The translations under genes and the position numbers were made by a program. Under the pieces are notes generated by a model that was given only the letters and a program-made list of their open reading frames with translations, ran no database searches and was not told the DNA's origin. From Paraburkholderia ginsengiterrae (lineage in GTDB: Bacteria; Pseudomonadota; Gammaproteobacteria; Burkholderiales; Burkholderiaceae): a stretch of 64,000 bases of DNA. Below are positions 22,882 through 32,848 of the stretch, in pieces. Location: positions 236,614-300,613 of the forward strand of contig NZ_LXKA01000327.1 of NCBI RefSeq assembly GCF_001645125.1, read 5' to 3'. The stretch's first letter is position 1; the number at the start of each line of letters is the position of its first letter.

Positions 22882-24420
22882 TCATTCGTGCGTGCTGTCG
22901 CCGACGGCGAAGGCCGCTTTCTCGTCGGCCGCGCTCAATTCGCGCAAGCCATGCTGACCCATCAGGCGGTACAGCGTGACACGCGAAATATTCAGATCCA
23001 ACGCCGCCTCGTTCAGCCGATGACGATGCCGCAGCAGGGCCGCCTCGATCGCCCGCTTCTCCGCAGCTTCGCGCGCCTGCGAGAGCGTCATGGTCTGCTG
23101 CGCGGTGAAGTGCGCGAGATCGAGGTCGTCGGCGGAAATCAGCTTGTTTTCCGCCATCACGATCGCGCGCCGCACCCGGTTGATCAGCTCGCGGACATTG
23201 CCAGGCCAGTTGTAGTTGTACAGCGCTTCGATTGCCGACGGCGTGAAGCCGCGAATCTTGCGCGCACTGTCGGTCTTGAACTTATGCAGGATGTGATGCG
23301 CGAGTATTTCGATGTCTTTGCCGCGCGCGCGCAGCGGCGGCTCGTCCACGCGCAGCACGCAGAGGCGGTGAAACAGGTCGGCGCGGAAACGTCCGTCGCG
23401 CATCGCGCTTTCCAGATCGACGTGGGTCGCGGAAATGATCCGCACGTCGACCGGAGTCGATTCGCGTCCGCCGAGCCGTTCGATCTTGCCCTCCTGCAGA
23501 AAGCGCAGCAGACTCGCCTGGCTTTCGAGCGGCAGATCGCCGATTTCGTCGAGCAGCAGCGTGCCGCCGTCGGCGGCTTCGACCCGGCCGATCTTGCGCT
23601 GATTGGCGCCGGTGAACGCGCCGCGCTCATAGCCGAATAGTTCGGACTGCAGCAGATGGTGCGGAATCGCCCCGCAGTTGATCGGGATGAACGGCGCTTT
23701 GCGGCGCGACGAACGCTCGTGAATCGCCAGCGCGGTCAGCTCCTTGCCGGTGCCCGACTCGCCGGAGATAAACACGCTCGCCTCGGTATTGGCCACCTTG
23801 CGGATGGTGCGAAAGAGCTGCTGCATGGCTTCGCAGGTGCCGACCATTTCCTCGTCGCCCGACTCGCTCACGGGGGGGGCGGCTTCGGGGTCGCACAGCG
23901 TCACCATGCCGAACGCGTGGCCGACCAGATAGTCGACCGTGGCGTTCGCCACCGGCAGCTTGACGAAGTCGAAACAGTAGTGACGCACGAGGCGCCGCAC
24001 GTCCGGATCGTTGAGACGCTCGCTGGTGGCGAGCGCGATCCAGCCGACCTGCTGCTGGCGCAGACTCGCTTCGAGTCCGGCGAGATCGCGCAGCGCAAAG
24101 CTCGCCAGATCGACAATGCCGGCGCAGGCCAGGTCGGGTTTGACCAGCCGGCCAAGCTCATGTGCCGAGCGCGCCGTCGCAACGTGCCAGCCGCGGCTCT
24201 TCAAATGCGCGATCAGACTTTCGTCTGGCGTGCGCGCCACGTACAGCAGCAGGCGCTGCAAACCGGAGTCGCCCGCGGGGGCGGGTTGCGCAGCGTCGCT
24301 GAGCGTGGCCGCCATCGCTGAGGACCGGCCCGCGGCGAGCTCCTTCGGCAGCGCGCGCGTTCCAAGCGCTCCTGCTCCGGCTAGCGGAGCCACACTGGTC
24401 AGATGAGGTGATTCACGCAC
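22882..24420 (-). CDS. Sigma-54-dependent activator, VpsR-like (copy 1, in the amyloid operon)
   Basis: Bacterial enhancer-binding protein, 512 residues. The N-terminal receiver-like domain (about 50-175) keeps an Asp in GIVDLASF (D104) but is otherwise unlike classical receivers and resembles VpsR-type domains. The AAA+ domain has Walker A GESGTGKE (about 220-227), the sigma-54 contact loop GAFTGA (267-272) and Walker [11 protein letters not shown]. The C-terminal Fis-type HTH is [20 protein letters not shown]. The GTG start at 24420 has a GAGG site and lies 24 bases after the fapF-like gene on the same strand, so it is probably the last gene of that operon. A shorter start at 24315 is possible. 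Regulation by cyclic-di-GMP is only inferred from VpsR/FleQ relatives. Confidence 0.9.
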
Positions 24421-24444
24421 GTTCGACCTCGTATCGTTGGCACG

Positions 24445-25881
24445 TCAGAAGGTATAGGGAAACCGCACGCCGACCACGAAGTTCGGCGCGTCCGGCGTCA
24501 AACCCACGGAGACCGAGCCGTTGATGGTCAGGTGCTTGTTCACGACGTGGTTCAAGCCAAAATTCAGCGCGGCGGCCGTGGTTTCGCTACCCGGCACCTT
24601 TTCGTACGAGCCACCCGGCGCGCGCGTCTTCGATTCAGGTTCGAGCGCCATCGTGTACGAGATGCTGGCGGAATCCTTGTCGGAGAATGCGAGCGCCACG
24701 CCGCCGCCGAACTGCACGATGTCGCCGAGCTTGACCGTTGCCGGCTGGGTTTGTCCCTGCACCGACGAGATATCCTCGAACGAGCGCGCAATGTTGTAGG
24801 TGTACGAAAGACTGCCGAACAGCACCACCGGGTCATAGGTCTTCAGCAGCGAGACGCCGGCCGTGATGTTCCAGAAGCCGGTGCCGGTGGGCAGTTTGCT
24901 CGGCGCCACCAGATTGGTGTTGTTGGCGTCCACCTGGAGCAGCTTCACGCCGAACGGCGAGCTGCCGGTCGGCGCCTTGATGCGCAGGCTGCCGACCACG
25001 TCCGGCAGGCTGTTGGTCTCTTTCAGGAACTGGTAGTAGATCCCGAAGTTGACGTCGCCGATATCGCTGCCGTTCACCGACGCGTCCGACAGCGTGTTCG
25101 CCGCGCCGCCCGCGCCGCCGACAATGAAGTTGCTATGCCGGTAGATGTACGGCACGTCGACGTCGATACTCATCCGGTCGGTCAGGCCGTAGCGGGTATC
25201 GAGATCGGCCATGACCTGGTGCGACTTGGTCTCGCCCAGGTTGATGTTGCCGAGAAAAATCGCGTCGAGCGCGAGGAAGCCCGACAACTGCAACTGGCGC
25301 CGGTCGTAGTAGGTGTCGCTGATACCCCAGTCCAACGTCAGCTTGTGATCGAAGAGCGGGGCGTGTTCGCGCTGCACGACGGCTTCTTCGGCCTGCGTGC
25401 GCACCGGTTCGGCGGCCTTCTGCGTCTGGCCGATGGCGCCGCTGCCGTCGGTCGCGGCCGGCAGGCCGCCGGCGCTGTTGCCTTGAGGCGGCGGCGGATT
25501 GACCGGCACGCCGGTCGCCGTGCCCGTGTTGCCGCCCGGCACCGGTGCGCCGGGATTGACCTGGGCGAGCGGCGGCAGCGGCACCGGCAGGCCGTCGGCG
25601 CCGGGCTGTTCGGCCACGGCTTCACTGCCGGCCGGCGCGCCGGAACCCGGCATGCCGCGGCCGCGCTGCGACATCTCCAGATCGGTGACCTGGCGTTCGA
25701 GCGAATGAATCTGCCGCTGTTGCTCGTCGACTATCCGCATCAACGTATTGAGGCGTTCTTCCACAGATTGTCCAGCGAGCGCCTGAGCGTTCGCCCCTTG
25801 CGAAAGTGCGAATAGCATGGCGGCGGCCGGAATGGCCGCCAGTGCCATGCGTGGCACATTTCTTGATGTAGCACTGGTCAT
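24445..25881 (-). CDS. fapF: FapF-like outer-membrane amyloid export porin
   Basis: Predicted outer-membrane beta-barrel of 478 residues. A signal peptide covers residues 1-33 (ANA-Q). Residues about 38-72 form a short coiled coil with heptad-spaced Leu/Ile (EERLNTLMRIVDEQQRQI), followed by a Pro/Gly-rich linker to about 165. The remainder is alternating polar/hydrophobic beta-strand sequence and ends FVVGVRFPYTF, with the terminal Phe recognised by the Bam machinery. Coiled coil, linker and barrel in this order match the FapF transporter of Pseudomonas. It is the last structural gene in the operon, as fapF is. The assignment rests on architecture and synteny. Confidence 0.8.
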   Translation of the reverse strand: MTSATSRNVPRMALAAIPAAAMLFALSQGANAQALAGQSVEERLNTLMRIVDEQQRQIHSLERQVTDLEMSQRGRGMPGSGAPAGSEAVAEQPGADGLPVPLPPLAQVNPGAPVPGGNTGTATGVPVNPPPPQGNSAGGLPAATDGSGAIGQTQKAAEPVRTQAEEAVVQREHAPLFDHKLTLDWGISDTYYDRRQLQLSGFLALDAIFLGNINLGETKSHQVMADLDTRYGLTDRMSIDVDVPYIYRHSNFIVGGAGGAANTLSDASVNGSDIGDVNFGIYYQFLKETNSLPDVVGSLRIKAPTGSSPFGVKLLQVDANNTNLVAPSKLPTGTGFWNITAGVSLLKTYDPVVLFGSLSYTYNIARSFEDISSVQGQTQPATVKLGDIVQFGGGVALAFSDKDSASISYTMALEPESKTRAPGGSYEKVPGSETTAAALNFGLNHVVNKHLTINGSVSVGLTPDAPNFVVGVRFPYTF

Positions 25882-25999
25882 TTTGTCTTCCCCCGGTATT
25901 CCGGCTGCGCAACATCCGTTTCTTGCAAGACGGCTACTGACGGTGCGCGGCCTTACGTGTACTGCTTTTGCTGCGGTTGGCGGGTGGCGGCCCGCATGT

Positions 26000-26806
26000 T
26001 TATCTCCTGTTTTGCAGGGCTTGTAGTACGCCTAACTGACGGATCATCGCGGCCGACATTTGCTGCGTCTGCAAATGCAACTGCAATGCGTTGGCGACTT
26101 GCTGGTTATTGCCTGCAATCTGTAACAACTGGGCGATTTGACCGTTGCCCGGTGCGATGGTCTGACTGGCGAGCCCGGCCGGAGTCTGCAGCGCGACACT
26201 GATGCCGTTGCTGCCGAACGAGATGCCGGCTTTGATCGAGCCGGTCGAATTGCTGGCCGCTGCTGAGGGTGCGTTCACGGTGCCCGTCGGCGTCACGGCG
26301 TTGTTGTTGAAATCGATGAGTGCCGAATTGGCGCCGCTGTTGTGGTCGCCCGCCACTTGAGTCGTTTGTGAAACACCGTTCACCGCGATGCCCTGCCCGC
26401 CGCTCACCTTAGCATTGGGATTGGCTCCCGAGCCGGCGGAACCGCTGCCCGGGCCGCCGCCGCTCACACTCGCCTGTGTCCTGACAGTGCTGGTGAGCTG
26501 GCCGGCTGTATTCTCTACCGCGGCAAGCGTGCCCTGGGCGAGGGCGGTCACGCCGTTGGGCAGTTGCCACTGGGAAAGAATGTTCAGAACAAAACCGGAG
26601 ATCATCGTGCCGCCGACATTTTTGCCGGTCTGGCTGGCGAGCACGTCGTCGTCCACCATCTGCACTTTGATGGCATCGATGCCGTTGTCGTGAGAAGAAA
26701 GAAACTCGGGCACCGGCGCCGCGCCCGAAGACGCCCAGGCGCTGCCGGTCACGCCGCACATCGTCGTGCAGATCGCAAGCCCGAGCTGTGTGAGGTGTTG
26801 CTTCAT
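26000..26806 (-). CDS. fapE: FapE-like secreted accessory protein
   Basis: Exported protein of 268 residues with a Sec signal at 1-25. Residues 51-62 read VDDDVLASQTGK, similar to a motif in the first gene of the operon. The rest is Gly/Ser/Asn/Gln-rich, with amyloid-like Q-V-AGD-N-N blocks such as TTQVAGDHNSGANSA and LLQIAGNNQQVANALQL at the C-terminus. Its position between the C39-like peptidase and the barrel protein is where fapE lies in Pseudomonas. The start is 8 bases after the peptidase stop, with no good ribosome-binding site of its own, suggesting coupling. There is a 118-base gap before fapF. The family call is by position and composition. Confidence 0.66.
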   Translation of the reverse strand: MKQHLTQLGLAICTTMCGVTGSAWASSGAAPVPEFLSSHDNGIDAIKVQMVDDDVLASQTGKNVGGTMISGFVLNILSQWQLPNGVTALAQGTLAAVENTAGQLTSTVRTQASVSGGGPGSGSAGSGANPNAKVSGGQGIAVNGVSQTTQVAGDHNSGANSALIDFNNNAVTPTGTVNAPSAAASNSTGSIKAGISFGSNGISVALQTPAGLASQTIAPGNGQIAQLLQIAGNNQQVANALQLHLQTQQMSAAMIRQLGVLQALQNRR

Positions 26807-26813
26807 GGTTGCG

Positions 26814-27527
26814 TCAGAACAGGTCTGCCTTGATCAAGCCGTACTCGACGAAGGGCGTCGCCGCCGTGCCGTTGGCCAGCGCACTGGCGCGCAGCTTGAG
26901 GGCGAGCGACTCGTTGTCCTGCAAGAGCGGGGAATCCTCCCTGAAGGGTTTGCCGAGGACCGCGAAAACAAGACCATTCCAGGTTTTGGCGAAGTCCTCT
27001 TCGAGCACGATGCGATTGCCGAGCGCCGGGTCCGCAATGAACACGCGGCCATCCTGGGCATGCTTGACGATCACGAAATGCTCGTACCCGTCGATGTTCA
27101 TCAGAACCATCACGGGAATCTGCAAGTGTTGGAGTGCGTCGGCGTTGACCCGGAAGCCACGCCCGCGCAAACCGATGGTCTCGACAAATTTCTTCATGTC
27201 GAGCATGGAGAAGCCATTTTTGACGACGACTTCAGGCGTCGAGAACACCATCATCCGGCGGATCAGTTCGGTCTCCGGAATGTCGATGCCATAGCCGTAT
27301 TTGAGGAGGGTCGCGAGCGCCGCTGCACCACAGCTGAAATCGAACTGCTGATTGACGATGTGGCTGTAGCGGATGTCCTTCATCGAGCGAACCGTCTTGG
27401 TCAACGGAACGCCCGCCAGCGTGGACGTGTCGATGGTCGCCTGTGCGTAAGGGTGGTCCACGCACAGTGTGCAGCTTGCCAGCGCTACAGCGAACCGTAG
27501 CGCCGGGAACCCCTTGAACCCGGACAT
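26814..27527 (-). CDS. fapD: FapD-like C39-family cysteine peptidase
   Basis: Papain-fold peptidase of the C39 type, 237 residues from the ATG at 27527 (GGGAGA 6 bases upstream; the longer frame to 27587 lacks a site). A signal-like hydrophobic N-terminus (about 1-30) puts it in the periplasm. Catalytic residues are visible: Cys66 in QQFDFSCGAAALATLL, His150 in GYEHFVIVK and Asp166 in IADPALGNR. C39 peptidases normally cut after double-glycine leaders, but this one lacks an ABC transporter, as FapD does. It lies between the FapC-like and FapE-like genes, the canonical fapD position. Confidence 0.86.
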   Translation of the reverse strand: MSGFKGFPALRFAVALASCTLCVDHPYAQATIDTSTLAGVPLTKTVRSMKDIRYSHIVNQQFDFSCGAAALATLLKYGYGIDIPETELIRRMMVFSTPEVVVKNGFSMLDMKKFVETIGLRGRGFRVNADALQHLQIPVMVLMNIDGYEHFVIVKHAQDGRVFIADPALGNRIVLEEDFAKTWNGLVFAVLGKPFREDSPLLQDNESLALKLRASALANGTAATPFVEYGLIKADLF

Positions 27528-27547
27528 GCTGGTCTCCCGCCTTATAC

Positions 27548-27576
27548 GCGCCGGCTGCTGCGATGGCAGCCGGCGC
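27548..27576 (-). repeat. Strong intercistronic hairpin between fapC-like and fapD-like genes
   Basis: An 11-bp perfect stem (GCGCCGGCTGC / GCAGCCGGCGC) with a 7-base loop lies in the 107-base gap after the amyloid-subunit gene and just before the peptidase ribosome-binding site. There is no T-run downstream on the minus strand. It is therefore more likely an mRNA-stabilising or attenuating structure than a full terminator. Confidence 0.75.
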
Positions 27577-27634
27577 GTCTTCCCCAAAACTGCTTTCTGG
27601 CTTCTTCTGCCGGGTTGCCGGCTCAGTTGCCGAT

Positions 27635-29026
27635 TTAGTGGCCGCTGTTCAGCGCAGCAATCGCAAGGCCGTTGTGTTGCAGGTTGCCCGCGCCGCCGGC
27701 GATATTCACGCCGATGTTGCCGGTCGCGTTAGCCAGCGTATTGGCCCCCAGCATCGCCGTGCCCTGGAATTGACCCTTGACCGCCATGCCGGCGGTTTGC
27801 GAGTTGTCATCCGTGGCGACCATTGCCGTGGTCAGTGCGTTGCCCGGGCTGGTCGTCGTTACCGCACCGGCAAGGCTGTTGTTCTGCACGTTGCCGATAC
27901 CCGAGGCGACGTTCACCCCGACGTTGCCCGTCACACCCGACAGCGAGCCATCCCCGATCGACGCGTTCAGATTGAAGTTGTTGATCTTGGCGGTGCCGGC
28001 CGAGGTTTGCGTGCTGAAGATCTGCGCATTGCCGAACACGTTGCCGATGTCGACCGAAGCGAGCGACACGTCGTTGCTTTGGGCGTTGCTGATGCCTTCC
28101 GCGACGTTGATGCCGAGGTTGCCCGAGACGCCCTTGGCCGCGTCGGCGCCGGTCGTGGCGTTCAGCGTGCCTGCCACTTGCGTGTTGGTGTGCACCGTCA
28201 CCGAGCCTTTGGTCGTCACATCTGTCGTAGCGAGGCTGGCGTCGACGCCCCAGGCCGCGTGGTAGGAGTCCGAGGAGGACGACCGGCTCTTTTCATAGCC
28301 GGACGAATGTTCGTCGGCCTTCGCGAAGCCCGATCCTTCGTTGGCCTGATAGCCCCACACCTTGGCGTTTCCAGATCCTTCCGATGCCTGGAAGCCGCCC
28401 GCTACAGCTGACGTGTTGGCGTAGTCCGATTCGTGATACCCGGCCTGGAATCCGCCACCCGCATGGAACGAACCGCTGCCGTGCGTCGGCGTGTCGTGGT
28501 TCTGATAGCTGTAGCTGCCGCCGATCGAACCGCCTGCCGAGATATGGCCACCGGAATTCTCGCTGGTGTGAGTAAAGGCCCCTTCAACGGCCGCTGCCTG
28601 CTGGTTGTTCTTATACCCGGTGCCTTCCACCGCGGCGCTTTGATTACCGTACGAATAGCTGGCGCTTGCCTTGGAGCCTTCCGACATGGAGGAACTGGCC
28701 GAATGGCTCTGGCTGGTCGTGAGAAACGCCGTGCCGCCGCCTTTGATCGACGAGGTATTGTTGTTCGTGGTGGTCGTCATGTGGCCGGTTGTATAGGTCT
28801 GGGCTTGCGGATCAAGCGACGCGTTCACGGTGACCGACTGGTTGTTGTTGATGACGGCGCCGGCGGTGCTGGACACGTGCACGCAGCCGTACAGGCCGAC
28901 CATGCCTTCGACGCCGATCTCCTCACCAACCAGTGTGGCATTGAACAGGTAGACCTTCTGTGGTGCGGCCAACACGCTGCCGGATGCTGCAACGAAAACG
29001 GCTGCGGCAATAAGAGTGCGCTTCAT
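27635..29026 (-). CDS. fapC: FapC-like major functional-amyloid subunit
   Basis: Secreted protein of 463 residues with a signal peptide at 1-20. The C-terminal third carries three imperfect repeats at about 301-325, 366-388 and 434-458, each of the form SGN-x-G-[IV]-N-[VI]-A-x-G-x-x-N-x-Q-x-N (for example TGNIGVNIAGGAGNLQHN), separated by ~42-residue linkers. Three repeats with two linkers is the FapC layout. Residues 30-290 are an unusual low-complexity Ser/Gly/Asn/Tyr/His-rich region. There is one Cys (47) and no C-terminal CxxC. Expected to polymerise outside the cell as a biofilm amyloid. The ATG has a GGAG site 6 bases upstream. Confidence 0.82.
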   Translation of the reverse strand: MKRTLIAAAVFVAASGSVLAAPQKVYLFNATLVGEEIGVEGMVGLYGCVHVSSTAGAVINNNQSVTVNASLDPQAQTYTTGHMTTTTNNNTSSIKGGGTAFLTTSQSHSASSSMSEGSKASASYSYGNQSAAVEGTGYKNNQQAAAVEGAFTHTSENSGGHISAGGSIGGSYSYQNHDTPTHGSGSFHAGGGFQAGYHESDYANTSAVAGGFQASEGSGNAKVWGYQANEGSGFAKADEHSSGYEKSRSSSSDSYHAAWGVDASLATTDVTTKGSVTVHTNTQVAGTLNATTGADAAKGVSGNLGINVAEGISNAQSNDVSLASVDIGNVFGNAQIFSTQTSAGTAKINNFNLNASIGDGSLSGVTGNVGVNVASGIGNVQNNSLAGAVTTTSPGNALTTAMVATDDNSQTAGMAVKGQFQGTAMLGANTLANATGNIGVNIAGGAGNLQHNGLAIAALNSGH

Positions 29027-29051
29027 GATTCGCTCCGATACTTAAGTGTGG

Positions 29052-29678
29052 TCAGTTAAAAAAAGTGCCCGCCGGGGGACGGAGCACAAAACTGTTTGCC
29101 GTGGCATTACCGGCGCCGGCTGTCTGGTTGATCTGCACGATCCCGCTGACGTTCTTGAAGGCATCGCTGGAAATATTTGCCTCGCGTACGCTATGAAGCC
29201 CGAAGGATTGACCTTGACTGCCGTTTTTCGGGGCCGTCGCGGATAGCTCCCCATCCGAGACGGTCTCGACTCCGAGCGCGGCAGTGCCCAACTGGGTGCT
29301 GTTGCGCTGCAGATTCCCTGCTCCGGCGGACTGGTTCACCAGTACCGCGCCGGATGAATTCGAAAATGCGTTGGCTTCGATCGACGCCCGCGCGCTCGTA
29401 ACCTTCGCGGCCACGGTGGCGCTTTGCGAGCTGGCGTTGTCGTTGCCGATCACGCCGCCGTTCGAGACCGTGATCTGGTTGGCCTGGGCGTTGTCGAGGC
29501 CGGCCGTTTCGTTGACCGCGAACGCGCCGGTTACGCCGGCGGCCGCGCCGTTGGCGATGGTCGAGGTGGCTGCGAGCGTCGGCACGGCTTGCGCGTGCGC
29601 GTGGCCTGCCACCAGGATGGCGCCGCTCACGCAGACGTACAGCGCCGCATGCAGCGAACGGAACGTGAGCGGGCTCAT
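29052..29678 (-). CDS. fapB: FapB-like minor amyloid subunit (nucleator)
   Basis: Secreted protein of 208 residues with a signal peptide at 1-30 (AHAQ). It has three repeats at about 50-70, 109-130 and 178-199 of the form SG-x-[VI]-x-[VI]-N-[QE]-[ST]-AG-x-x-N-x-x-x-N (for example LVNQSAGAGNLQRN). These are shorter than, but clearly related to, those of the next gene. Three repeats in a ~200-residue protein directly before the larger repeat protein match FapB. Between repeats 2 and 3 lies VSDGELSAT, reminiscent of the DD-x-x-L motifs in two other operon proteins. The start overlaps the upstream stop (ATGA) and has GGAGG 7 bases before it. Confidence 0.8.
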   Translation of the reverse strand: MSPLTFRSLHAALYVCVSGAILVAGHAHAQAVPTLAATSTIANGAAAGVTGAFAVNETAGLDNAQANQITVSNGGVIGNDNASSQSATVAAKVTSARASIEANAFSNSSGAVLVNQSAGAGNLQRNSTQLGTAALGVETVSDGELSATAPKNGSQGQSFGLHSVREANISSDAFKNVSGIVQINQTAGAGNATANSFVLRPPAGTFFN

Positions 29679-30214
29679 TTCAGACCTCCGAGCGCGCTGT
29701 TGAGCGCGTTCGAGAGCGGCGCCAGCGAGCCGGTCACCGACGAGGTGATGGTGCCGCCGATGCCTGGGGCGGGCATGCCGATGCCGCCGGCATTCAGCGC
29801 GACGGTGCTGCCGGTCGTCTTGCCGCTGAGGATCTGGGTGACGGCCTGCATGCCGGTTCCGCCGAGCACTCCGCCATCCGCCACGCCGCTCGACCCGTGC
29901 GCATTCGTCAGATCAGTGTCGCCAACGAGCGTGGCAACCGCCGGATTGAACGAGCTGGCCGGGAAGGTGGTAGCGCGTACGGCGACCGGGTCCTGATTCT
30001 TCGGCACCGGCACGAAGGCGTCGCGCGGTGTCACGGTGCGCTCGACGATGATGTCGCCCGGATTGGCGACCTGTTGAGCCATGACGTTGACAGCGAAGCC
30101 GGCGGTGAGCAGGACGACGACGGTGACCACGGCGGCCGGCAATGCGCTGGACGACGAGGTAGACGACAAAGCCCGCGACGTGGGTGCGCACAGCGTCCGG
30201 ATGGAGGTAATCAT
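29675..30214 (-). CDS. FapA-position periplasmic protein
   Basis: Protein of 179 residues with an N-terminal hydrophobic segment (about 25-45, AAVVTVVVLLTAGFAVNVMA), probably an uncleaved anchor or signal peptide. The body begins PGDIIVERTVTPRDAFVPV and ends in a Gly/Ala/Ser-rich stretch. No catalytic motif is seen. It overlaps the FapB-like gene by 4 bases and is immediately upstream of it, as fapA is; FapA is thought to act as a chaperone controlling subunit distribution. The call rests on position only, so no gene symbol is given. AAGGAC precedes the ATG. Confidence 0.6.
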   Translation of the reverse strand: MITSIRTLCAPTSRALSSTSSSSALPAAVVTVVVLLTAGFAVNVMAQQVANPGDIIVERTVTPRDAFVPVPKNQDPVAVRATTFPASSFNPAVATLVGDTDLTNAHGSSGVADGGVLGGTGMQAVTQILSGKTTGSTVALNAGGIGMPAPGIGGTITSSVTGSLAPLSNALNSALGGLK

Positions 30215-30302
30215 GTCGGTCCTTGCTTTAGTCTTGTCTTAAGAGCGGCTGATGTGTTTGTGATGCCCCGGCCGCCTGTCGTACGTCGTTAATAATTTCG
30301 GG

Positions 30303-30797
30303 CTATTTTCTCTGGTAGTTGGCGACGTTGCCTTGCGCAGAGCGCGCGGCGTCGACGGGAACCGGCAACGGCGAGGGCGGGGCGATCTCGTCCCATAGCG
30401 TCACGCCATTGCCGCCGCCGCTGCCGTGCATGAGCTGCGGGGTGGCGGCGACCATGACCATGCCGACCGCGCCGCCGCGTTGCCGCGACAGCATCTGATC
30501 GTCGAGCGAAAAATCGTTCACGGATGCACCATCGGCCGGAATGGCCGGCACGTTGGCATCCAGCGGGTGGAATAAGGCGGAGGAGTGCAGCGTTTGATCA
30601 AATGAGGCTGCTGTGGCGAGCGTGGTGCCGGGAACCGTGGCCGATCCTGCCTCGCCGGCTTCCGCCAGCATGGCGGATTGGGCCTGCAGGGTTTCCTGTG
30701 CGTGGACGCCAACGGGCGGCACAAGCAGAGCAATGGCGGTGCAGAGTGCCGCACATGGTGCAATGCCGTTCAAATCGATGCGGAAAGCGAATCGCAT
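30303..30797 (-). CDS. First gene of the amyloid operon: exported protein with a double-glycine-like motif
   Basis: Protein of 164 residues from the ATG at 30797, chosen because AAGGAG lies 7 bases upstream and just downstream of the sigma-54 promoter; the longer frame to 30863 would begin upstream of the promoter. Residues 1-34 are a signal peptide (VHAQ). Residues 95-109 read DFSLDDQMLSRQRGG, with L at -12, M/L at -8/-7 and GG at -2/-1, the pattern of C39-cleaved leaders. The remainder is hydrophobic and Pro-rich. I do not recognise the family and it has no counterpart in the standard fapA-F set. It could be a substrate of the peptidase encoded downstream. Confidence 0.75.
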   Translation of the reverse strand: MRFAFRIDLNGIAPCAALCTAIALLVPPVGVHAQETLQAQSAMLAEAGEAGSATVPGTTLATAASFDQTLHSSALFHPLDANVPAIPADGASVNDFSLDDQMLSRQRGGAVGMVMVAATPQLMHGSGGGNGVTLWDEIAPPSPLPVPVDAARSAQGNVANYQRK

Positions 30798-30824
30798 GAT
30801 GTGTCTCCTTGGTGCATGGCATTT

Positions 30825-30840
30825 AGCGAAACGTGTGCCA
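30825..30840 (-). promoter_or_regulatory. Sigma-54 (-24/-12) promoter of the amyloid operon
   Basis: On the minus strand TGGCACACGTTTCGCT matches TGGCACG-N4-TTGCW. GG (30839-30838) and GC (30827-30826) have the obligatory 10-base spacing, with two mismatches elsewhere. The predicted transcript start near 30814 leaves a 17-base leader containing the AAGGAG site for the ATG at 30797. Confidence 0.85.
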
Positions 30841-30913
30841 TCGCTCGCAACCCATTGATCCATGAGGATGCGAGTAAAAACTTCGGAGTAGGATTCGAAA
30901 AATCGGTCGAAAA

Positions 30914-30931
30914 CGTTTCAGCGCTGAAACG
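30914..30931. promoter_or_regulatory. 18-bp perfect palindrome, candidate enhancer for the sigma-54 activators
   Basis: CGTTTCAGCGCTGAAACG is perfectly self-complementary. Its centre lies about 108 bases upstream of the predicted transcript start, a typical place for an enhancer-binding protein. Binding is inferred. Confidence 0.7.
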
Positions 30932-31331: not shown

Positions 31332-32726
31332 ATGGAACCCGCAACGCGGCAACTGATTTACGTTTCGCGTGATCCAAGCGCGGAACTGAACACGCGTTTT
31401 CACCAGCGCGGCTGGCATGTCGAAGTCGTGGGGTCCGCGCGCGACGTGCGCCGTGCGGTTCGCGCCGGCATGGCTGCGGGCGGCCTGCTTGATCTGTCTA
31501 GTGAATTCCAGCCACACGAAATCGCCGCCTTCGAATCCTGCCTGACCATGCCGAACGTCGGCTGGGTGGCGGCCACCATGCCCGGACAACTCCAGGACGC
31601 CGCGCTGCGCCGGCTCGTGCGCGACTATTGCTTCGACTATGTGACGGTGCCGTATTCGGGCGACAGGATCGTCGACTCAGTCGGTCATGCATACGGCATG
31701 ATTTCGCTGGGTGAACCGGCGTCCAACGACGGCTCGCAAGGGGCCGAGGGCGAAATGGTCGGTTCGTGCGACGCCATGCTCGCGCTGTTCCGTTCGATCC
31801 GCAAAGTGGCGATGACCGACGCGCCCGTGTTCATTTCCGGCGAGTCGGGCACGGGCAAGGAACTGACGGCGGTTGCGATCCACGAACGCTCGGCGCGGCG
31901 AAATGCGCCTTTCGTGCCGATCAACTGCGGCGCGATTCCGCCGCATCTGCTGCAATCCGAACTATTCGGCTACGAACGCGGGGCGTTTACCGGCGCCAAT
32001 CAGCGCAAGATCGGCCGGGTCGAGGCGGCGAACGGCGGCACACTGTTTCTCGACGAAATTGGCGACCTGCCGCTCGAAAGCCAGGCGAGCCTGCTGCGCT
32101 TCCTGCAGGAACGCAAGGTGGAGCGGCTGGGCGGGCACGGTGCGATCGAGGTCGACGTGCGCATCATCTCGGCCACGCACGTGGACATGACGGCAGCGAT
32201 GATCGAAGGACGCTTCCGTTCCGACTTGTATCACCGGCTGTGCGTGCTGCAGATCGACGAACCGCCGCTGCGCGCGCGTGGCAAGGATATCGAACTGCTC
32301 GCGCGGCACATGCTGGAACGTTTCAAGAAAGATGCCAGCCGCCGCTTGCGCGGCTTCGCTCCCGACGCGATCGCGGCGCTCCATAACTATGGCTGGCCGG
32401 GCAACGTGCGCGAGCTGATCAACCGGGTGCGGCGCGCTATCGTGATGTCGGAAGGGCGGGCTATCACGGCGCGTGATCTGGAGCTCGCCGAGTACGTTGA
32501 AATCGTGCCGGTGTCGCTCGCGCAGGCCCGCGAAGCGGCCGAACGTCAGGCCATCGAGCTGGCGCTGCTGCGTCATCGCGGGCGGCTTGGCGACGCGGCG
32601 CAGGAACTCGGCATCTCGCGCGTCACGCTTTACCGTCTGTTGTGCTCGCACGGCATGCGTCATATGGAAGGCGAGCCGCTCGCCGCACCGCACGGAGAAT
32701 TGCCCGCTTCGGTGCCGCATCTGTAA
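31332..32726 (+). CDS. Sigma-54-dependent activator, VpsR-like (copy 2, divergent)
   Basis: Enhancer-binding protein of 464 residues, a clear paralogue of the activator at the other end of the block. The N-terminal domain (1-130) shares RLVR-YCFD-V, WHV and LLDLSS/IVDLAS (Asp54) with it. The AAA+ domain has GESGTGKE (about 170-177), [19 protein letters not shown] and [15 protein letters not shown]. The Fis-type HTH is [25 protein letters not shown] is intact, so sigma-54 interaction is expected. Divergent orientation and the shared upstream region suggest it controls the amyloid operon, possibly with copy 1. A terminator follows. Confidence 0.9.
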
Positions 32727-32820: not shown

Positions 32821-32848
32821 CGGGTATCAGAACGCGGGTATCAGAACG
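32821..32848. repeat. Tandem 14-bp direct repeat upstream of thyA
   Basis: CGGGTATCAGAACG occurs twice in perfect tandem, followed by a small CGGCC-TT-CGGCCG-type hairpin. It lies about 95-120 bases before thyA. It could be a recent slippage duplication or a tandem regulator site. Confidence 0.6.

Follow-up and report, generated by a model that had tools for sequence, protein, structure and literature searches.

In Pseudomonas, the functional amyloid (Fap) system exports FapB and FapC through FapF, and the activity of FapD is necessary for this export (PMC5557850). The same report found the secretion of FapC to depend on the Cys of FapD, saw no peptides from the first ~70 residues of FapE, and called the target of FapD unclear. 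Fap systems are frequently met in Burkholderia, and the PAO1 Fap proteins share 17-39% average identity with their homologues outside Pseudomonadales (PMC3792158, published in 2013). We analyzed a stretch of 64,000 nucleotides (hereafter the window) from the 8.5 Mb genome of Paraburkholderia ginsengiterrae, in which an initial annotation, made from the sequence alone, had read a Fap-type operon that begins with an additional gene and includes a sigma-54 activator. Our analysis supports this reading. As Fap of Burkholderia had already been published (PMC3792158), a point which the initial annotation missed, the operon belongs to a known kind and is no discovery in itself. We here focus on the extra leading gene, termed gene X, and on a C39-type site that X shares with FapE. 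We propose, with moderate confidence in the mechanism as a whole, that this Fap export operon encodes a peptidase, FapD, that cuts both X and FapE, and that the operon is transcribed from a sigma-54 promoter activated by a neighboring regulator, Rup.

The seven minus-strand genes and the sigma-54 activator were found as open reading frames (ORFs) at the positions that had been given for them, and six of the seven matched the NCBIfam families FapA to FapF in this order. The operon resembles Pseudomonas fapABCDEF in gene order, in the three repeats of FapB and FapC, in the C39 peptidase, and in the FapF barrel, but differs from it in the leading X, in the adjoining VpsR-type activators, and in a FapC without CxxC. 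The fap operons of Burkholderia and other Betaproteobacteria represent the same system in related bacteria; X, the C39-type site, and the activators were not found in the accessible part of their description (PMC3792158). Likewise, no description of X or of the C39-type site was found in the accessible Fap and C39 literature, supplements not being covered, which is not proof of novelty.

Gene X (30303..30797, minus strand) encodes 164 amino acids comprising a signal-peptide-like start, a variable spacer, the C39-type motif LDDQMLSRQRGG, and the tail VTLWDEIAPP. Translation most likely begins at the ATG at 30797 behind AAGGAG, rather than at the start of a longer frame of 186 aa. The window X gave no Pfam match and no NCBIfam match below an E value of 0.1, and its relatives matched no family of either database above the cut-off, with weak sub-threshold matches only. 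X was present in 78 of the 80 named related loci; contig ends truncate the other two (L053 and L107). The N-terminal half of X varies freely, while the C-terminal half is strongly conserved in the blocks LDDQxLSRQRGG, VAATPQLM, and VTLWDEIAPPxPLPIPVD. The first of them (L-D-D-x-x-L-x-x-Q-R-G-G) resembles the double-glycine leader recognized by C39 peptidases. Distant Fap operons are also led by genes that combine a WDE tail with a motif-like site (twice in L149, and in L151, L217, and L229). In L149 (2736-12703), two tandem fap operons each have their own leading X, with one fapF in the stretch. A second, diverged X, convergent and downstream of fapF, was seen in L169, L170, and L171. In a sample of 300 genomes of the family, of which the tables were read by hand, a strong FapF match (180 bits or more) was obtained in 94 genomes, and X was identified in 75 of them; a further 48 genomes gave X without a strong FapF match. 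X appears to be a conserved family that has been overlooked in many Fap operons, and as such, with its likely C39-protease site in common with FapE, it had escaped the initial annotation.

The second protein bearing the site is the fibre-associated FapE (26000..26806, minus strand; NCBIfam FapE, 5.6e-12), in which it reads VDDDVLASQTGK. In the window and its close relatives the FapE site takes the form V[DG]DDVLAxQTGK with small variations, and it is conserved across 79 rows of the alignment. All 18 distant FapE examined, including those of the Pseudomonas type, possess IELKDQELAQLRGK, ELTDEEMGDMRGR, ELSDSELAQQRGR, or similar sequences, mostly directly behind the signal peptide; the set does not include the FapE of L157, which was not recovered. 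Counted back from its last residue, IELKDQELAQLRGK has Leu at -12, Glu at -8, Leu at -7, Leu at -4, and Gly at -2. It thus fits the published C39 leader pattern, Leu(-12)-X3-Glu(-8)-Leu(-7) ahead of the double-Gly position (PMC6363468). The hydrophobic residue at -12, Leu at -7, and Gly at -2 expected of a C39 double-glycine substrate are found in both X and FapE; at the other positions, the window X has M-8, Q-4, and G-1, the window FapE V-8, Q-4, and K-1, and the FapE of L145 E-8, L-4, and K-1. Compared with the leader substrates of LahT and PCAT1 (PMC6363468), X and FapE are alike in the hydrophobic -12, L-7, G-2, and a helix before the putative cut, and unlike in being candidate Sec-exported substrates of a stand-alone peptidase, in Q-4, and in the K or R at -1 of FapE. 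FapA (29675..30214, minus strand; NCBIfam FapA, 9.3e-9), probably a periplasmic chaperone, carries the site in degenerate form, VGDTDLTNAHGS.

The putative reader of the site is FapD (26814..27527, minus strand), a C39 cysteine peptidase (NCBIfam FapD, 1.6e-63; Pfam C39, 9.8e-23) with a signal-peptide-like start. Its closest match in PDB is 6mpz, 'Double Glycine Motif Protease' (E value of 2.6e-6). The catalytic Cys/His/Asp noticed in the initial annotation correspond to C67, H151, and D167, which are, together with Q61, unchanged in 79 of 79 rows (P0005 numbering).

We scored the Fap proteins with a matrix trained on the 18 distant FapE sites, three of which belong to other genera within the same family. 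The 99% shuffle level was exceeded by X in 78, FapE in 76, FapA in 67, FapB in 42, and FapC in 15 of the 79 rows, and by FapD and FapF in none, although the rows are related sequences and thus not independent trials. FapF was accordingly dropped as a motif-bearing substrate, as was FapC, of which the match lies inside a repeat. In the reverse test, the best match of a matrix trained on X falls on the site in most of the distant FapE. AlphaFold placed helices of low confidence at the motif (residues 100-106 in X and 53-60 in FapE). Searching ten FapE and X relatives against NCBIfam up to an E value of 10 yielded no bacteriocin-leader family above the cut-off; a sub-threshold lantibiotic match (E value of 0.91) overlaps the site in L154.

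Several observations weigh against the proposal that FapD cuts X and FapE. In the window, the residue at -4 is Q and thus not hydrophobic, that at -8 is M or V instead of E, and the K at -1 of FapE is outside the usual G/A/S. The Fap proteins were stated to lack a canonical C39 site (PMC5557850). Of 623 background proteins encoded in the flanks, many of them homologous to each other, 28 reached the median score of X, 18 that of FapE, 72 that of FapA, and 116 that of FapB. The best match of the X-trained matrix lies elsewhere in the FapE of L139, L153, and L155, and shuffled FapE scored as high in 98 (L148), 109 (L152), and 44 (L154) of 200 cases; for the X-like sites, shuffles scored as high in 37 (second X of L149) and 105 (L151) of 500 cases. 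The AlphaFold models of X and FapE are poor, with mean pLDDT of 55 and 44, respectively. Regarding X itself, it was missed in 19 of the 94 genomes with a strong FapF match, albeit scoring was limited to the first 12 candidates of each genome, and X was in fact seen in one of the 19 (G161). Among ORFs of at least 70 aa, none beside the Pseudomonas-type operons L144-L148 had a WDE tail, and X is therefore not universal. The motif score by itself is only modest evidence.

The loci without fap also bear on the proposal. The fap-less Paraburkholderia loci keep the order pmbA-folA-(gap)-Rup-thyA. From the 48 genomes with X but without a strong FapF match, we took 47 (G173 was left out; L167 and L174 are of the same genome). 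In one set of loci, the X motif was absent from L161, L162, L163, L167, and L168, degraded in L164, and kept in a stop-bearing remnant in L165; X was broken in L173, and none was seen in L166. Forty further regions with an X match and no strong FapF match yielded 39 X reading frames, none of which (0/39) has the motif, as opposed to 78 of 78 X accompanied by fap. These orphan frames (L174-L212) have the VTLWDE tail and usually come with the palindrome and the promoter-like element described below. Since the frames were picked by such a pattern, counting WDE or LWDE in them is circular; this does not apply to the motif being absent. Over 30 orphan X genes (L179 and L199 left out), the uncorrected ratio of nonsynonymous to synonymous polymorphism (pN/pS) was 0.33 for the VTLWDE part and 0.62 for the whole gene. 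A FapB remnant is still found in two fap-less loci, L179 and L168. The site was lost together with the peptidase, which fits FapD being the reader of the site. As a tentative extension, X with its LWDE tail may be a secreted peptide that is released by FapD and has a function of its own; Rup, the palindrome, and X would then be the stable core in much of the family, beside which the amyloid genes come and go, with X gaining or losing the site depending on the presence of FapD.

These data also bear on other explanations. The operon may be an ordinary Fap operon in which X is a minor accessory, the shared motif is due to chance or is a generic amphipathic helix, and FapD cuts only the N-terminus of FapE and/or the linker of FapF at other sites, as has been suggested in reviews. 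The modest outcome of the background control leaves room for such a view, but the near-invariance of the motif in X and FapE, its occurrence in distant FapE, and its disappearance from X where fap is gone make this explanation rather unlikely in our opinion. We hold equally doubtful that the motif is a docking signal, for FapD without cutting or for the coiled coil of FapF, which would bring X, FapE, FapA, and possibly FapB to the exporter. It would account for the degenerate versions in FapA and FapB, which have no clear scissile GG, and substrate recruitment by degenerate C39-like domains has precedents (PMC6363468). On the other hand, the catalytic residues of FapD are invariant, in Pseudomonas its Cys cannot be dispensed with (PMC5557850), and both FapE and X preserve the G of RG/TG to a degree that exceeds the needs of helix docking. 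Least probable of the three, we consider, is that X is primarily a target of Rup and no Fap component, sharing only a promoter with fap: X does persist without a strong FapF match, mostly with the palindrome and the promoter-like element, but all 78 X accompanied by fap have the C39-type motif, and X-like genes lead Fap operons of other lineages.

Under the proposal we favor, in which FapD cuts X and FapE, Sec would export the two proteins to the periplasm, where FapD would recognize a short helix marked by G at -2 and by hydrophobic residues at positions -7 and -12. FapD would cut X after RGG and FapE after TGK, which would free a ~55-residue X peptide carrying VTLWDEIAPP and a trimmed FapE. 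This cleavage step may be coupled to the opening of FapF or to fibre capping, and FapA, with its degenerate site, may only dock. FapB and FapC would be exported through the FapF barrel and assemble into fibres, FapA acting as the chaperone, as is known in Pseudomonas; amyloid would be produced here in the same way. Transcription would start from the sigma-54 promoter before X, with Rup as the most likely activator, acting from the palindrome 90 bp upstream.

The putative sigma-54 promoter TGGCACACGTTTCGCT (30825..30840, minus strand) is of the form GG-N10-GC, and its end at 30840 is also the end of the stretch delimited in the initial annotation. Against the sigma-54 consensus, the -24 element matches and the -12 element has one mismatch. 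The palindrome GTTTCAGCGCTGAAAC (30915..30930) is a candidate activator-binding site. In the leader alignment, the operon leaders share this palindrome, GTTTCA-N4-TGAAAC, and the GG-N10-GC element; 5 of the 78 leaders (L034, L037, L040, L043, and L065), in which the palindrome was not recognized, were left out of this alignment. The half-sites are exact in 70 of the 78 leaders including that of the window, and in all 70 the palindrome lies 90 or 91 bp upstream of the sigma-54-like element, which a loose pattern detected in all 78 leaders. Both are kept, 90-92 bp apart, in 46 of 49 fap-less regions, in which one genome figures twice and almost all of which were selected for an X match. The palindrome occurs at 2 places in the whole genome of P. 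ginsengiterrae. A stricter sigma-54 pattern, applied to this genome first, gave no match, as it was too strict. Directly upstream of the -24 element, a conserved TCAATGG(A/G)TTGCG is found (30843-30858, minus strand).

Two activators adjoin the operon. Rdn (22882..24420, minus strand; Pfam VpsR, 1.5e-25; Sigma54_activat, 1.1e-68; HTH_8) is the downstream one, while Rup (31332..32726, plus strand; Pfam VpsR, 5.3e-20) is divergent from the operon and was absent from the gene list of the initial annotation. Both comprise a VpsR domain, a sigma-54 AAA+ domain with GAFTGA (identified by reading), and a Fis-type HTH_8 domain. Among eight fap-less congeners, Rup was 97-99% identical in six, broken in one (G237), and without a close match in one (G150). 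All of the 40 further fap-less regions had a Rup match, which was better than the Rdn match in 36 of them; these regions span ~2.5 kb each, and genes farther off are not excluded. As for Rdn, L161-L164, L166-L168, and L173 gave cross-matches to Rup only, and L165 a 26-residue remnant. Most of the loci in which Rup but no Rdn is seen have kept the operator, which makes Rup, situated next to this conserved operator, the better candidate for binding the palindrome. However, an Rdn-like gene was the better match in 4 of the 40 regions (L206, L207, L210, and L212), near the orphan X. Hence, the link between Rdn and fap is not a strict one, and in these regions Rdn could be what binds the palindrome. 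L169-L171, from a different genus, have a single activator, located upstream, and the exact palindrome was not found in them. BerB and VpsR, which are tied to c-di-GMP and the biofilm matrix (PMC5552954), belong to the same class of sigma-54 activators; in contrast to the activators here, BerB adjoins the bep polysaccharide cluster and reportedly has no N-terminal input domain (PMC5552954). Between Rup and thyA, we found a perfect 14-base tandem duplication, CGGGTATCAGAACG (32821-32848); the tandem-repeat search found none inside the operon.

The remaining genes of the operon are fapB, fapC, and fapF. fapB (29052..29678, minus strand; NCBIfam FapB, 1.5e-19) encodes a minor, nucleator-like amyloid subunit and overlaps fapA by 4 bases. 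The linker of FapB contains VSDGELS, in which D is conserved in 79 and L in 78 of the 79 rows, and this stretch resembles the start of the C39-type motif but lacks the glycine; with 42 rows above the shuffle level but 116 background proteins scoring as high, it is a weak lead as a site. fapC (27635..29026, minus strand; NCBIfam FapC, 1.2e-14) encodes the major amyloid subunit, in which a long Gly/Ser/His-rich region precedes the repeats. FapC also matched, in sequence, the FapC fibril structures 9nqd (1.6e-11) and 9u4u (2.9e-11) in PDB. Reading by eye, we counted three repeat units each in FapB and FapC, as had been proposed. CxxC was termed conserved in FapC (PMC6173800), but it was found in none of 78 relatives and in only 4 of 21 distant FapC; we thus do not take it as defining for Fap. 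fapF (24445..25881, minus strand; NCBIfam FapF, 9.4e-108) encodes an exporter with a coiled coil and an outer-membrane beta-barrel. As expected for the coiled coil plus 12-strand barrel of FapF, residues 178-478 of the protein match the solved FapF structure 5o65 with an E value of 1.1e-82 in a comparison of sequences. The FapF identification in the initial annotation is borne out by both matches, and those of FapB and FapC by the profile matches above. Judged by FapF, the closest named relatives are Paraburkholderia, among them P. xenovorans LB400 (94% identity) and P. bryophila (93%). None of the six Fap proteins reaches its curated NCBIfam equivalog cut-off, a stricter criterion than family membership (FapF, 361 of 700 bits).

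The Fil pilus cluster (NCBIfam FilB and FilC) also has a stand-alone C39 peptidase and a FapF-like barrel, but the scores in the window favor Fap (214 vs. 113 bits for FapD; 361 vs. 74 bits for FapF), and a FilB-like locus, L214, gave no FapB or FapC match. Apart from the operon analyzed here, a second, FapD-E-F-like cluster was found in L134, L135, L136, L137, L143, L218, and L223, comprising a C39 peptidase, an adjoining FapE-like protein with ...L..[ML]RGG, and a FapF-like barrel (~31-35% identical to FapF in the L134-L143 group); no FapB or FapC match was seen in these clusters. In L219 and L220, a C39 peptidase and a FapF-like barrel lie beside FapB-repeat-like proteins with QVQQNNGSNNAMQQ or similar sequences, possibly representing another amyloid-like export cluster.

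FapD is needed for Fap secretion, and its substrate has been unsettled in the accessible literature; FapE and X now each provide a conserved candidate site for cleavage. What is new here is this concrete candidate site in FapE together with a second candidate substrate, X. Our results suggest that many Fap operons outside Pseudomonas may hold a component beyond the usual six genes, and that this component would stand under a dedicated sigma-54-type operator.

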